The notes below the pieces were generated by a model that saw only the letters and a list, made by a program, of their open reading frames with translations, had not been told where the DNA came from and did not search any database. A stretch of 64,000 bases of DNA. Source: Polaromonas sp. (GTDB taxonomy: Bacteria > Pseudomonadota > Gammaproteobacteria > Burkholderiales > Burkholderiaceae_C). Within the stretch, counting starts at the first letter, position 1; the number at the start of each line of letters is the position of its first letter. The translations under genes were made by a program, and so were the position numbers. Location: contig NZ_JAQSDA010000009.1 of the NCBI RefSeq assembly GCF_029945685.1, positions 1-64,000 on the forward strand, given 5' to 3'. This document shows, in pieces, positions 41,055 to 45,436 of this stretch.

Positions 41055-41130
41055 GGCCCGGTAGCTCAGTCGGTAGAGCAGAGGATTGAAAATCCTTGTG
41101 TCGGTGGTTCGATTCCGCCCCAGGCCACCA
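41055..41130 (+). tRNA. tRNA-Phe (GAA)
   Basis: 76 bases with encoded CCA; the anticodon loop TTGAAAA gives GAA. The acceptor arms GGCCCGG and CCAGGCC leave a C-A mismatch at positions 5-68. A TATAAT box at 41039-41044 lies right before it. Everything downstream is accessory DNA, so this gene is a likely integration site whose 3' end has been replaced. Confidence 0.93.
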
Positions 41131-41356: not shown

Positions 41357-41404
41357 GGCCTCCGAAGCCAAGGGTCATGGGTTAGATCCCCGCCAGCCGC
41401 ACCA
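41357..41404 (+). pseudogene. 3' half of a tRNA-Arg (CCG), probable attachment-site remnant
   Basis: From the anticodon stem to CCA the spacing fits a tRNA exactly: loop CTCCGAA (anticodon CCG), a 5-base variable loop, a T arm, acceptor 3' strand and ACCA. No matching 5' half is present; positions 27-28 do not pair, base 56 is A instead of C, and the T stem has a mismatch. It is not a functional tRNA. Elements that integrate into tRNA genes carry such 3' halves. Confidence 0.55.
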
Positions 41405-41862
41405 ATAGAAAATTCACGATTTAGACTCTCCGTCTGAAATTCGGGGCGTCACTGTAAGCGCCCATGTAAGCAAACTTGGTTGGGCGTACCTCGAACGCGT
41501 TTACCGGTTAGCTCTTGCGGGAGAGGCTTGGCCGGATTCGGCTGCCACCCTCTCCCCCAGTAAGCCAATAAACAAGCGCCTCTCGGGGTGCTTTTTTATT
41601 GCTTCCTACCAATGCTTCTGCCATTGGCTGCGGTGGTTGCAGGTCCTGGCCCTCGGCTCAGTTGGGCAAGGTTGCACCGCTCAACTGCCAAAATCGAGTC
41701 AAACTCGGCAGCCTCTTAGGCAGGTGCGGGCTCGACGGCTTGATCGAGCGAATTGCGCAGGCGTTATGCGAACCCTCATTGTTGGCCTATCATGCATCCC
41801 AACGACAATCTGAATTCGGGGTTGCTCAAAATTTAAGCAAAAAAAAGACAAGAATAGGCACT
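41405..41862 (+). other. Spacer before the ATPase-protease pair, with hairpins
   Basis: No gene is recognised here. A hairpin GGGAGAGG (41519-41526) / CCTCTCCC (41549-41556) is followed by a 7-pair stem and T-run at 41574-41600, a likely terminator for anything entering from the left. The frame of the next gene is open back to 41599 but the sequence before 41863 does not look protein-like. Confidence 0.4.
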
Positions 41863-42915
41863 GTGGCTAGCTCGGAACAACTTAAGGCGCTTATAAAGTC
41901 GCACATCAGTCGCGACGACGGACATTTTTATTCCGTCGCGATGCAGGTGGCCGCGCATGAAGCAAAGCTTGGTCATGGAAAGCTTGCGGAAGAGCTTCGC
42001 GACCTGATTGACTCGGGCAAGACCCGAGTCAGTCAAGACGCCTCCGGCAAGCTTGTGCCCATAGCAGGCAGTGTAAATATAGCGAACAAGCCGCGCGGTG
42101 AGCTTGCCAATCTGTTGACCGTGACTCATCCGGCCAACCGCTTGGGTGAAATGGTGTTGGATGACTTGGCCGTCAAGCAGCTTGCTCGCATCATCAAAGA
42201 GCAACGCATGCTAGCGCGGATTAAAGAGCACGGACTGTCCCCGCGCCGAAAGCTTTTGCTGGTAGGCCCACCTGGAACCGGTAAAACCATGACGGCATCT
42301 GCCTTGGCAGGTGAACTGGGCATCCCGCTGTTTTTGGTACGTCTCGATTCGTTGATTACCAAATTCATGGGTGAAACTGCTGCCAAACTGCGTCAAGTGT
42401 TTGATGCCATCGCAGACATGAGAGGCGTCTATTTTTTCGACGAGTTTGATGCGATCGGCTCGCAGCGCGGTGCCGCAAATGATGTGGGCGAAATTCGGCG
42501 AGTGTTAAATAGTTTTCTGCAGATGATTGAGCATGATCAGTCGAACAGTTTGATTATCGCCGCAACAAACCATCCCGAAGTCTTAGACAACGCGTTGTTC
42601 CGGCGCTTCGATGACGTGGTGGAGTATCACTTACCTACGCCAACGCAGGCGCTGAATCTGATTAGATTTCGTTTAGGGGGGTTTGCTCCCAAGCCCTTTA
42701 AGAGAGAGGGTCTAGTCGAGCAAGCGGAGGGACTTAGCTACGCTGAAATTTGTCGAGCTGTGGATGATTCCATCAAGGATGCGATCATGCATGATCAGAC
42801 AAAGGTGCAACGGGTGGAGTTGGGGCGTGCGTTAGAGGAACGCCGCCTCATTGGCGCAAAGCGGGCCAATAACAATAAGCACACGTCAAATCATGCCGGA
42901 ACAAGCCCAAGATAA
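41863..42915 (+). CDS. AAA ATPase of an IetAS-type defence pair (IetA-like)
   Basis: 350 residues from GTG 41863. The N-terminal 100 residues are helical (QVAAHEAKLGHGKLAEELRDLID). The AAA domain has Walker A at 135-142 (GPPGTGKT, K141), Walker B with D193 and E194 (YFFDEFDAI), a sensor Asn in IAATNHPEVLD and an Arg finger region ALFRRFDD. It overlaps the downstream subtilisin-like protease gene by 23 bases, so the two are translated together. This ATPase plus subtilase pair is the arrangement called IetAS, reported as an anti-phage system and earlier in plasmid stability. The DNA is more A/T-rich than the core genes. The pairing is clear; identity with IetA is by architecture. Confidence 0.78.
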   Translation: MASSEQLKALIKSHISRDDGHFYSVAMQVAAHEAKLGHGKLAEELRDLIDSGKTRVSQDASGKLVPIAGSVNIANKPRGELANLLTVTHPANRLGEMVLDDLAVKQLARIIKEQRMLARIKEHGLSPRRKLLLVGPPGTGKTMTASALAGELGIPLFLVRLDSLITKFMGETAAKLRQVFDAIADMRGVYFFDEFDAIGSQRGAANDVGEIRRVLNSFLQMIEHDQSNSLIIAATNHPEVLDNALFRRFDDVVEYHLPTPTQALNLIRFRLGGFAPKPFKREGLVEQAEGLSYAEICRAVDDSIKDAIMHDQTKVQRVELGRALEERRLIGAKRANNNKHTSNHAGTSPR

Positions 42916-45436
42916 ACGTCCCCACCTTGTACTGAAAAAATCATCTAAGGCCCAGCCATTTACGGCTCCGTCAGCAGGTGGCGGCGGGACGCCCGAGGTG
43001 CCCAAGCTTGACCGAGCCCAGCACGGTGCCGGGCTACAGGCACAGTTGCAGGCTCTTAAGCCGACTGCTCAGCAAGCCGTGGAGGTACAGACAGAGCAAG
43101 GACTTCAGAGTGGCTTAGGGTTGCAAATTCAGTTTGTTGGTATACCGAATGTCGAACTCGCATTTGAAAGTCTCGGTAATGAACGCAGTCGCAATCCAGG
43201 CAAACAGATTGAAGTACTGAGTGTTCGAGCCGATGGTAATTCGACTGTTGCCAACGTCTTTGTGCCCGACGGTAAGCTTGATCACTTTGAGAAATACATT
43301 GCCGAGTATCTGGATGCCAAGACAGACAAAAATGGCAAGCTGATCGACCACAGTACGTTGCTCAACGCGATCTCATCCATTCGCAATGCTGAACTTCGCG
43401 GGCTCTGGACCGATTTGCCCGACCTGCTTCCTCAGGATATGGCCGAGAAGTTTTGGTGGGAAGTTTGGCTTCCCGTTCGTGGCCAGCGAAGCAACGTGGT
43501 CGAGGATTTTCGAAAGTTAGCAGGGCTAGCTGAATGCAAAGTTAGCGCCCACCAGATCAACTTCCCCGAACGAACCGTTGTCCTGATGTTCGGGTCGCAA
43601 CAGCAGCTCTCAACCTCTGTAATGACGCTCAATTGTGTGGCAGAACTTCGCCGTGCGAAGGAGACCGCAGAGTTCTTTGACGGAATGGTTCCGCTTGAGC
43701 AACAAAATTGGGTTGATGAAACGTTGGCTCGATTAACTGTAGCGCCGGAACACGAGGCAACGCCCCATGTCTGCCTCTTGGATTCCGGAGTGAATCGAGG
43801 ACATCCTCTGCTGGCGCCGTTCCTCACCACCGCAGACCTACACTCAGTTGAACCTGCGTGGGGTGTTGACGACACGGCGAATCATGGCTCTGGGTTGGCT
43901 GGACTTGTGGCGCTGGGGGATTTGGCAGACGCGTTGGCCTCAGATGGCCCTGTGGTGGTCCAGCATCGTTTGGAATCAGTGAAGTTGACCCCCGAACAGG
44001 GCGCTAACGATGGAGATTCCAGACATCATGGCTACCTGTTCGCGGAGGCCGTTTCCCGGCCCGAAGTTGCTGCACCCATGCGTCTACGTGTATTTACCTC
44101 CGCGGTGACATCTAGCGATGACCGTGATCGAGGCCGTCCGTCCGCCTGGTCTTCGACCGTGGACCGCCTTGCTGCTGACTATGATGGCAACGGTGAATTT
44201 CCACGTCTGTTTGTTCTGTGCGCAGGCAATACTGAAGATCAACACTCTTGGAGTACCTACCCAGCAAGTTTGAGTACTAGTGGCATCCGAGACCCCGGTC
44301 AAGCCTGGAATGCGATCACGGTCGGTGCTTTTACCGAAAAGGTGAAGATCACCGAAGCCGATGCCCAAGGTTTTTCCCCTGTTGCGCTCAGTGGTGGGCT
44401 TAGTCCATATACGCGCACGTCGGCGGACTGGAGTAGCGCTTGGCCATTGAAACCTGAGGTGGTCTTTGAAGGCGGAAACGCTGGCAAGGATGCTTTGGGT
44501 GCTATTGGGATCTCCAGTCTCCATTTGCTGACAACCCACAATCAGCCGATTGACCGCTTGTTTGCCACGACCAATGCGACAAGCGCTGCTTCTGCGTTGG
44601 GCGCACGTATGGCTGGGCAACTGATTGCGGCTTACCCTGCCTTTCGTCCCGAGACCATCCGTGCATTAATTGTCCATTCAGCGGAATGGACAGATCAGAT
44701 GCGTGCCACTTATTTGCCCGCCCATGGATCTGCAACCAAAGCGGACCACGTAAAGATAATTCGGCATTGCGGCTGGGGCGCACCGCAATTGGATAGAGCG
44801 CTTTGGAGCGCGGGTAACTCGCTCACCTTGGTAGTTGAGGATCAACTACACCCTTACCAGAAGGTTAAAGAAAAGGGTGTCGTCAGCAAAGACATGAATC
44901 TTCATTCCCTGCCGTGGCCGAAGGAGCAATTGCAGGCGCTGCCGCCCGACAGCAAAGTGGAACTGCGTATCACTTTGTCATACTTCATCGAGCCGAATCC
45001 TTCGGCTCGTGGCACTGCTTCTAAGTTCTACTATCCGTCTCATCGCCTTAGGTTTGATGTTCAACGCTCACTGGACGCAACAACCGAAGACTTCGTTGCC
45101 CGCATCAATGCAGCGGCCGAGCGGGAGGACGATGACGACGCGATTGACCCCAAAGACCCAGACTGGCTCTTGGGAGATCGTCAGCGCCACCGCGGATCAT
45201 TGCACCAGGACATCTGGCGAGGTACCGCTGCTGAACTAGCAAGTCGGGGCTTCATTGCTGTCTACCCGGCTAAGGGTTGGTGGCGTACACGCCCAGCCCA
45301 AGAACGCTATAACCTGCCTGCACGTTACAGTCTCATCGTGTCTATCCGTACTGGAGAGACAGACGTGGATCTCTACACCCCGGTTGCCCAACAAATTGCC
45401 GCGCAAGTCGCAGTGCCTGTTGTTGTGAGCACCTGA
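42893..45436 (+). CDS. Subtilisin-like S8 protease of an IetAS-type defence pair (IetS-like)
   Basis: 847 residues. An N-terminal region of about 285 residues without recognised motifs is followed by a subtilase domain with catalytic D297 (LLDSGVN), H331 (NHGSGLAGL) and S564 (ATSAASALGA). Spacing and motif contexts are those of the S8 family, and the triad is intact, so it should be active. A C-terminal extension of about 250 residues follows. No signal peptide is seen, so it acts in the cytoplasm, consistent with a defence or regulated-toxicity role under the ATPase encoded by the overlapping upstream gene. Confidence 0.8.
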   Translation: MPEQAQDKRPHLVLKKSSKAQPFTAPSAGGGGTPEVPKLDRAQHGAGLQAQLQALKPTAQQAVEVQTEQGLQSGLGLQIQFVGIPNVELAFESLGNERSRNPGKQIEVLSVRADGNSTVANVFVPDGKLDHFEKYIAEYLDAKTDKNGKLIDHSTLLNAISSIRNAELRGLWTDLPDLLPQDMAEKFWWEVWLPVRGQRSNVVEDFRKLAGLAECKVSAHQINFPERTVVLMFGSQQQLSTSVMTLNCVAELRRAKETAEFFDGMVPLEQQNWVDETLARLTVAPEHEATPHVCLLDSGVNRGHPLLAPFLTTADLHSVEPAWGVDDTANHGSGLAGLVALGDLADALASDGPVVVQHRLESVKLTPEQGANDGDSRHHGYLFAEAVSRPEVAAPMRLRVFTSAVTSSDDRDRGRPSAWSSTVDRLAADYDGNGEFPRLFVLCAGNTEDQHSWSTYPASLSTSGIRDPGQAWNAITVGAFTEKVKITEADAQGFSPVALSGGLSPYTRTSADWSSAWPLKPEVVFEGGNAGKDALGAIGISSLHLLTTHNQPIDRLFATTNATSAASALGARMAGQLIAAYPAFRPETIRALIVHSAEWTDQMRATYLPAHGSATKADHVKIIRHCGWGAPQLDRALWSAGNSLTLVVEDQLHPYQKVKEKGVVSKDMNLHSLPWPKEQLQALPPDSKVELRITLSYFIEPNPSARGTASKFYYPSHRLRFDVQRSLDATTEDFVARINAAAEREDDDDAIDPKDPDWLLGDRQRHRGSLHQDIWRGTAAELASRGFIAVYPAKGWWRTRPAQERYNLPARYSLIVSIRTGETDVDLYTPVAQQIAAQVAVPVVVST

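Follow-up and report, generated by a model that had tools for sequence, protein, structure and literature searches.

We analyzed a 64,000-nucleotide stretch of Polaromonas sp. DNA (RefSeq assembly GCF_029945685.1, contig NZ_JAQSDA010000009.1, positions 1 to 64,000 of the forward strand), hereafter the window, and focused on two overlapping genes, ietA and ietS, which encode an AAA ATPase and a subtilisin-like protease (Table 1). A preliminary description, made from the sequence alone, had recognized in them the architecture of IetAS, placed them next to a tRNA as the first cargo of an accessory region, and presented them as a phage-defence pair. The architecture and the position hold: both proteins match the PADLOC models for IetAS, the neighboring tRNA is a tRNA-Phe, and ietAS comes first inside a ~64.2-kb island bounded by a 49-bp repeat. 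The outcome that would have counted against the description, no match to any IetAS profile, did not occur. Its emphasis on defence needs qualification, as argued below.

The ietA-ietS locus and its products

The starts at 41863 (ietA) and 42893 (ietS) are preferred over the longer mechanical frames because the aligned homologues have their N-termini at or near these residues, and with these starts the residue numbers K141 and S564 used in the preliminary description are correct. The two genes overlap, as had been noted, and the arrangement is consistent with translational coupling, which we infer from the sequence. The GC content is 0.53–0.55 across 41–46 kb, against 0.60–0.69 in the 6 kb before and ~0.61 in the 4 kb after, so the pair is indeed less G/C-rich than its flanks. 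This low value is, however, not peculiar to ietAS, since the deeper parts of the island (51–64 kb) are nearly as low, at 0.54–0.59.

Table 1 Features of the ietAS locus and its island, and the second IetAS pair of the genome. Positions are those of the window unless a contig or locus is named.
Feature	Position	Strand	Remark
tRNA-Phe(GAA), island integration site	41055-41130	+	found with ARAGORN
Left attachment (att) repeat	41082-41130	+	49 bp of the tRNA-Phe 3' end, identical to the right copy
Remnant of the apparent left end of another island	41357-41624	+	degenerate tRNA-Arg(CCG) 3' end plus ~200 bp
ietA	41863-42915	+	GTG start, 350 amino acids (aa), classic AAA ATPase, putative antitoxin/regulator
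ietS	42893-45436	+	ATG start, 847 aa, cytoplasmic-type subtilase, putative toxin/effector
ietA/ietS overlap	42893-42915	+	23 bp
Tyrosine integrase	C9:103701-105062	-	Arm-DNA-bind_3 and Phage_integrase; adjoins the right att copy
Right att copy	C9:105247-105295		49 bp, exact
Second IetAS pair	G000:C6:69183-72681 = L133:7184-10682	-	found in the PADLOC IetA search; divergent from the window pair

IetA matches PADLOC model PDLC02196 with an E value of 2.3e-75 and Pfam AAA with one of 1.1e-31. Residues 4–55 make up an N-terminal helical domain. The Walker motifs are intact, as the preliminary description had stated: K141 of Walker A (GPPGTGKT) and D193-E194 of Walker B are invariant, together with N236 and R247/R248, in all 58 aligned sequences (57 of 78 relatives and the window, near-duplicates and truncated or frameshifted frames being excluded). 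We take N236 to be the sensor, R247/R248 the Arg fingers, and K167-F168-M169-G170 the pore loop, whose aromatic position is F in 39 and Y in 19 of the 58 sequences. An AlphaFold2 model with a mean predicted local distance difference test (pLDDT) score of 77.9 gave Foldseek matches to proteasomal ATPases and FtsH motor domains; by sequence, the best 60 of 266 matches among solved structures are Cdc48/p97-type and related ATPases. Assignment of IetA to the TRIP13 protein of the cyclic oligonucleotide-based antiphage signaling system (CBASS) was rejected, the PADLOC TRIP13 matches being much weaker (3.7e-12 versus 2.3e-75).

IetS matches Pfam Peptidase_S8 (E = 6e-48) and PADLOC model PDLC02198 (E = 1.2e-33), the latter match excluding the N-terminal region, since it covers residues 297–854 of an 861-aa frame. 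The Asp-His-Ser triad (D297/H331/S564), previously described as intact, and N446, presumably the oxyanion residue, are invariant in all 65 aligned sequences (64 of 80 relatives and the window, with the same exclusions). Mature and pro-form subtilases were the Foldseek matches of the AlphaFold2 model (mean pLDDT 83.5). A sequence search of solved structures returned subtilisin-type proteases only (15 sequences, E up to 0.001) and turned up no structure of an IetA/IetS pair. The N-terminal ~270 residues are predicted to form two alpha-beta domains and the region past ~residue 640 is beta-rich; tested pieces of both gave no Pfam match reaching its cut-off. From the predicted order of strands and helices, and from the pro-subtilases among the Foldseek matches, one might guess that the N-terminal residues serve as an inhibitory prodomain, but these pro-form matches superpose poorly (root-mean-square deviation of 22.5 for the top match).

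The two genes are inherited together. A scan of GTDB genome contigs gave at least 554 confirmed relatives, of which the best 80 were kept, and ietA immediately precedes ietS in 78 of these, some of them cut by contig ends. At the other two loci the IetS frame starts at base 2 (L100) or base 135 (L083), at a contig edge, and its N-terminus is lost. The distance between the ietA and ietS frame ends ranges from −68 to +39 bp in 77 of the 78, the exception (L044) having a broken IetS frame, and the overlap is exactly 23 bp in 19 of the 78 relatives having both frames. Clustering the neighbors of the 80 relatives, many of them shortened by contig ends, revealed no widespread third partner gene. The distribution is patchy: among other genomes, relatives of the window pair were found in 7 of 398 from the order (E of 1e-20 or better, with at most two candidates scored per genome) and in 2 of 86 from the genus, the latter with 51% and 43% identity.

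Two IetAS branches in one genome

The PADLOC hidden Markov models were applied alone, as profiles, and each of the adjacent genes matched its IetAS profile. At the PADLOC and Pfam E values given above, chance is excluded as the source of the match, and judged by its sequence the window pair is a real, intact IetAS pair. NCBIfam describes the same two proteins, by name and architecture, as the anti-phage equivalogs IteA (NF042959) and IteS (NF042956). Homology to these is detectable, but the window pair remains far below their cut-offs, with 210.5 of 510 and 82.9 of 900 bits. A small IetS alignment likewise matches the IteS model with all eight of its members, at scores far below 900 bits as implied by the best E value of 3.1e-38.

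The PADLOC IetA search also found a second IetA in the same genome (C6:71428-72552), which scores better than the window IetA and belongs to a pair that passes both NCBIfam cut-offs (525.4 of 510 and 994.3 of 900 bits). The IetS of this C6 pair (747 aa) is 24.6% identical to the window IetS across 395 columns. The window IetS has a nearer relative on a plasmid record of Agrobacterium fabrum C58, with 41.3% identity over 747 aa; this listed homologue is not necessarily the C58 IetS used in experiments. The name IetAS, as these sequences indicate, covers at least two well-separated branches, both of which are present in this genome; C6-type IetAS occurs in 1 of the 86 other genomes of the genus. 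The window pair appears to belong to a mobile-element, toxin-antitoxin-like branch, and the C6 pair to the branch that NCBIfam names anti-phage. The earlier designation as a phage-defence pair stands as far as the name IetAS goes, and its emphasis on defence is weakened by the equivalog scores and by the nearness of IetS to the C58 plasmid homologue. A match to IetAS profiles alone should not be taken as proven phage defence. A comparison of the two branches in one host would show directly whether the act that causes addiction is biochemically the one that defends against phages. What the present analysis adds to the knowledge of IetAS is this reassignment of the branch, a second pair carried by the same genome, and an island end that is composite, as described below.

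The pair could nevertheless act primarily in anti-phage abortive infection, IetA sensing a phage protein and then releasing or activating IetS, with stabilization of the island being incidental. IetAS is among PADLOC's defence systems, and the second IetAS pair of the genome has E1-E2 and JAB genes in its vicinity. Subsets of the relatives are neighbored by type I or type III restriction-modification genes or by a NERD-UvrD helicase: neighbor clusters comprise a type III methyltransferase-like gene at 13, a NERD-UvrD helicase at 9 and a type I restriction-enzyme homologue at 7 of the 80 loci, counts that go by similarity rather than position, with some placements distant and one representative scanned per cluster. 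Phage replication proteins (primase, helicase and polymerase) are moreover cited as activators of many systems, ietAS included (PMC10732053). Against a primarily anti-phage role, besides the low equivalog scores, a PADLOC scan of ten other island proteins (eight at 45.8–52.0 kb and two near the far end) yielded a single helix-turn-helix (HTH) regulator, mostly with control-protein models, and one lysogeny test, reported in PMC11878078, failed to obtain an ietAS-carrying lysogen. We consider this explanation possible but rather unlikely.

A probable toxin-antitoxin function and its alternatives

On the gene structure, conserved catalytic residues, co-inheritance and mobile location established here, we favor, with a probability of about 0.62, assigning the ietAS operon to the toxin-antitoxin branch of mobile elements, with a protease toxin, restrained by IetA, that would hold its island and might also abort phage infection. 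IetS, as a cytoplasmic subtilase, would kill or arrest the cell through cleavage of cellular proteins. The AAA ATPase IetA, probably a hexamer translated from the overlapping message that also encodes IetS, would hold the protease inactive. IetS would be released once IetA is lost or overridden, as might happen when the element is lost, a competing replicon enters or a phage replication protein appears; the island would in this way be kept in the population, and a phage infection could be aborted. We infer the IetA hexamer, the cytoplasmic place, the IetS targets, the trigger and phage defence by the window pair, the last of which is plausible.

For homologues, others have established the toxicity of the protease and its neutralization by the ATPase. 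IetA and IetS of the Agrobacterium Ti plasmid pTiC58 (Yamamoto et al. 2009) are cited as a toxin-antitoxin module (PMC5006074, PMC8562856), and thus as an ATPase and subtilase pair on mobile DNA; they are plasmid-borne, whereas the window pair lies on a chromosomal tRNA island. Salmonella genomic island 1 (SGI1) carries sgiA/sgiT, an ATPase/subtilase operon on an integrative element, whose ATPase and protease are given as 50% and 36% identical to pTiC58 IetA and IetS (PMC5006074). According to the same source, expression of the SGI1 subtilase in E. coli lowers transformation 100- to 1000-fold, an effect relieved by the ATPase. SGI1 is a different element, mobilized by IncA/C plasmids, and is likened here to the window pair by its description. 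The same holds for TA132/3 of Mycoplasma mycoides, which has the same gene order but is chromosomal in mycoplasmas; the mycoplasma AAA-ATPase/subtilisin pairs are reported to have the protease as toxin and the ATPase as antitoxin (PMC8562856). The mechanism of ietAS is described as unknown (PMC9958689, PMC11878078), and no mechanistic study of IetAS was recognized in the literature searched, a limited search that is no proof of absence.

Plasmid records support a mobile habit, and this evidence comes with reservations that, along with several other observations, weigh against the toxin-antitoxin reading. Window-type IetS has matches in 468 of 72,556 plasmid records (376 covering at least 80%, and 329 of the 468 typed conjugative), a count that is redundant because 213 of the 468 are Klebsiella records; by comparison, it matches 2 of 50,697 phage records, one of them covering at least 80%. 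C6-type IetS matches 104 plasmid records, 4 of them covering at least 80%, so the other branch too has matches among plasmid records. For SGI1, sgiAT is reported to give no post-segregational killing from its native promoter (PMC5006074). No sigma-70-like promoter was found on the plus strand ahead of ietA, the region holding one site, on the minus strand, where 2.2 are expected by chance. In favor of the reading, pairwise distances of IetA and IetS are strongly correlated (r = 0.874 over 58 pairs, reached by none of 2000 permutations), but the correlation, lacking a species-tree baseline, could come from shared descent alone.

The same co-divergence would also suit a two-subunit ATP-dependent protease, in which IetA, rather than acting as an inhibitor, would unfold selected substrates and deliver them to IetS. 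Such a machine is possible, and it too counts against a simple toxin-antitoxin pair: IetA retains the pore-loop aromatic along with the Walker B, sensor and Arg-finger residues, and its modeled fold resembles proteasomal and FtsH motors. The homologous proteases, however, are reported to be toxic without the ATPase, which relieves the toxicity; this would be unexpected if the ATPase were needed for activity, and we regard the two-subunit machine as quite improbable. The lack of a clear promoter and the degenerate tRNA-Arg remnant just upstream of ietA could likewise indicate that the island carries the pair in a decayed or silent state. With open frames, invariant catalytic residues and a low approximate ratio of nonsynonymous to synonymous substitutions (dN/dS of 0.046–0.056 against two relatives and, for IetA, 0.043 against a third for which IetS was not computable, all with dS >1), we find decay or silence very improbable.

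The tRNA-Phe island and its left end

The 49-bp repeats and the integrase beside the right copy delimit an island of ~64.2 kb, in which ietAS comes first and the integrase occupies the opposite end. Both hallmarks of a tRNA-targeted genomic island, a repeat of the tRNA 3' end and a tyrosine integrase at one end, were found, and on this sequence evidence the island is real. Of 17 same-genus loci, one (L108) carries after its tRNA-Phe a sequence matching that beyond the right att copy (83% over 298 bp) and has the look expected of a site without this island. The site seems otherwise variable, the remaining 16 loci matching over at most 56 bp, about the tRNA end itself, or not at all. Checked cargo in the window includes a heavy-metal P-type ATPase, an outer-membrane efflux protein, a DUF932 protein and a YqaJ-type recombinase. 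A second tyrosine integrase lies directly outside the right att copy (L102:2405-3790, equal to G000:C9:105405-106793), which suggests tandem elements at tRNA-Phe.

Between the tRNA-Phe and ietA, the remnant with the tRNA-Arg(CCG) end is 90% identical over 269 bp to the sequence of G000:C28 near 189409. Because it resembles the left end of the apparent C28 island, the left end of the present island is composite. The apparent C28 island, in tRNA-Arg(CCG), extends over ~97232–189409, with an integrase-like frame beside C28:97232. Beyond the tRNA-Arg part, no shared upstream control region was found among the 80 relatives.

These ends suggested a further, speculative picture, in which ietAS of the window's branch would be a portable cassette for the ends of tRNA-targeted elements. 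Lying next to a tRNA, away from the integrase, it would travel from one tRNA site to another as an att-flanked unit and protect the end of its element by killing cells that lose the element or receive a competing one. Leads in this direction are the tRNA-Arg remnant adjoining the window ietAS, the short distance of ietA from a preceding tRNA in Duganella (L039, tRNA-Phe) and Glaciimonas (L044, tRNA-Arg(CCG)), and a ~4-kb stretch of Cupriavidus agavae (L101:8738-12823) that has ietAS enclosed by tRNA-Met and a 50-bp repeat of the tRNA-Met 3' end, with no other frame >110 aa listed wholly inside. On the other side, tRNAs were sought in 55 of the 80 relatives, and a complete tRNA with its 3' end facing a nearby ietA was present in only 3 of the 55, a count without a background rate. 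Searches with 25-base patterns of the tRNA-Phe and tRNA-Arg ends (at most 3 mismatches) gave one occurrence each in the window, so there is no second tRNA-end copy just downstream of ietS. We hold the portable cassette to be unlikely.

In 7 of 79 regions (L029-L032, L034, L052 and L088, among 78 relatives and the window), ietA is closely preceded by a small HTH gene, which is absent from this position in the window. Such a regulator also occurs just upstream of ietA at the plasmid loci L134 and L135, placed as an autoregulator might be. At four loci (L051, L056, L063 and L069), ietAS is flanked by a type III methyltransferase-like gene on one side and a NERD-UvrD helicase on the other, and another gene, of >1000 aa, is found upstream, an arrangement that is possibly a larger composite system.

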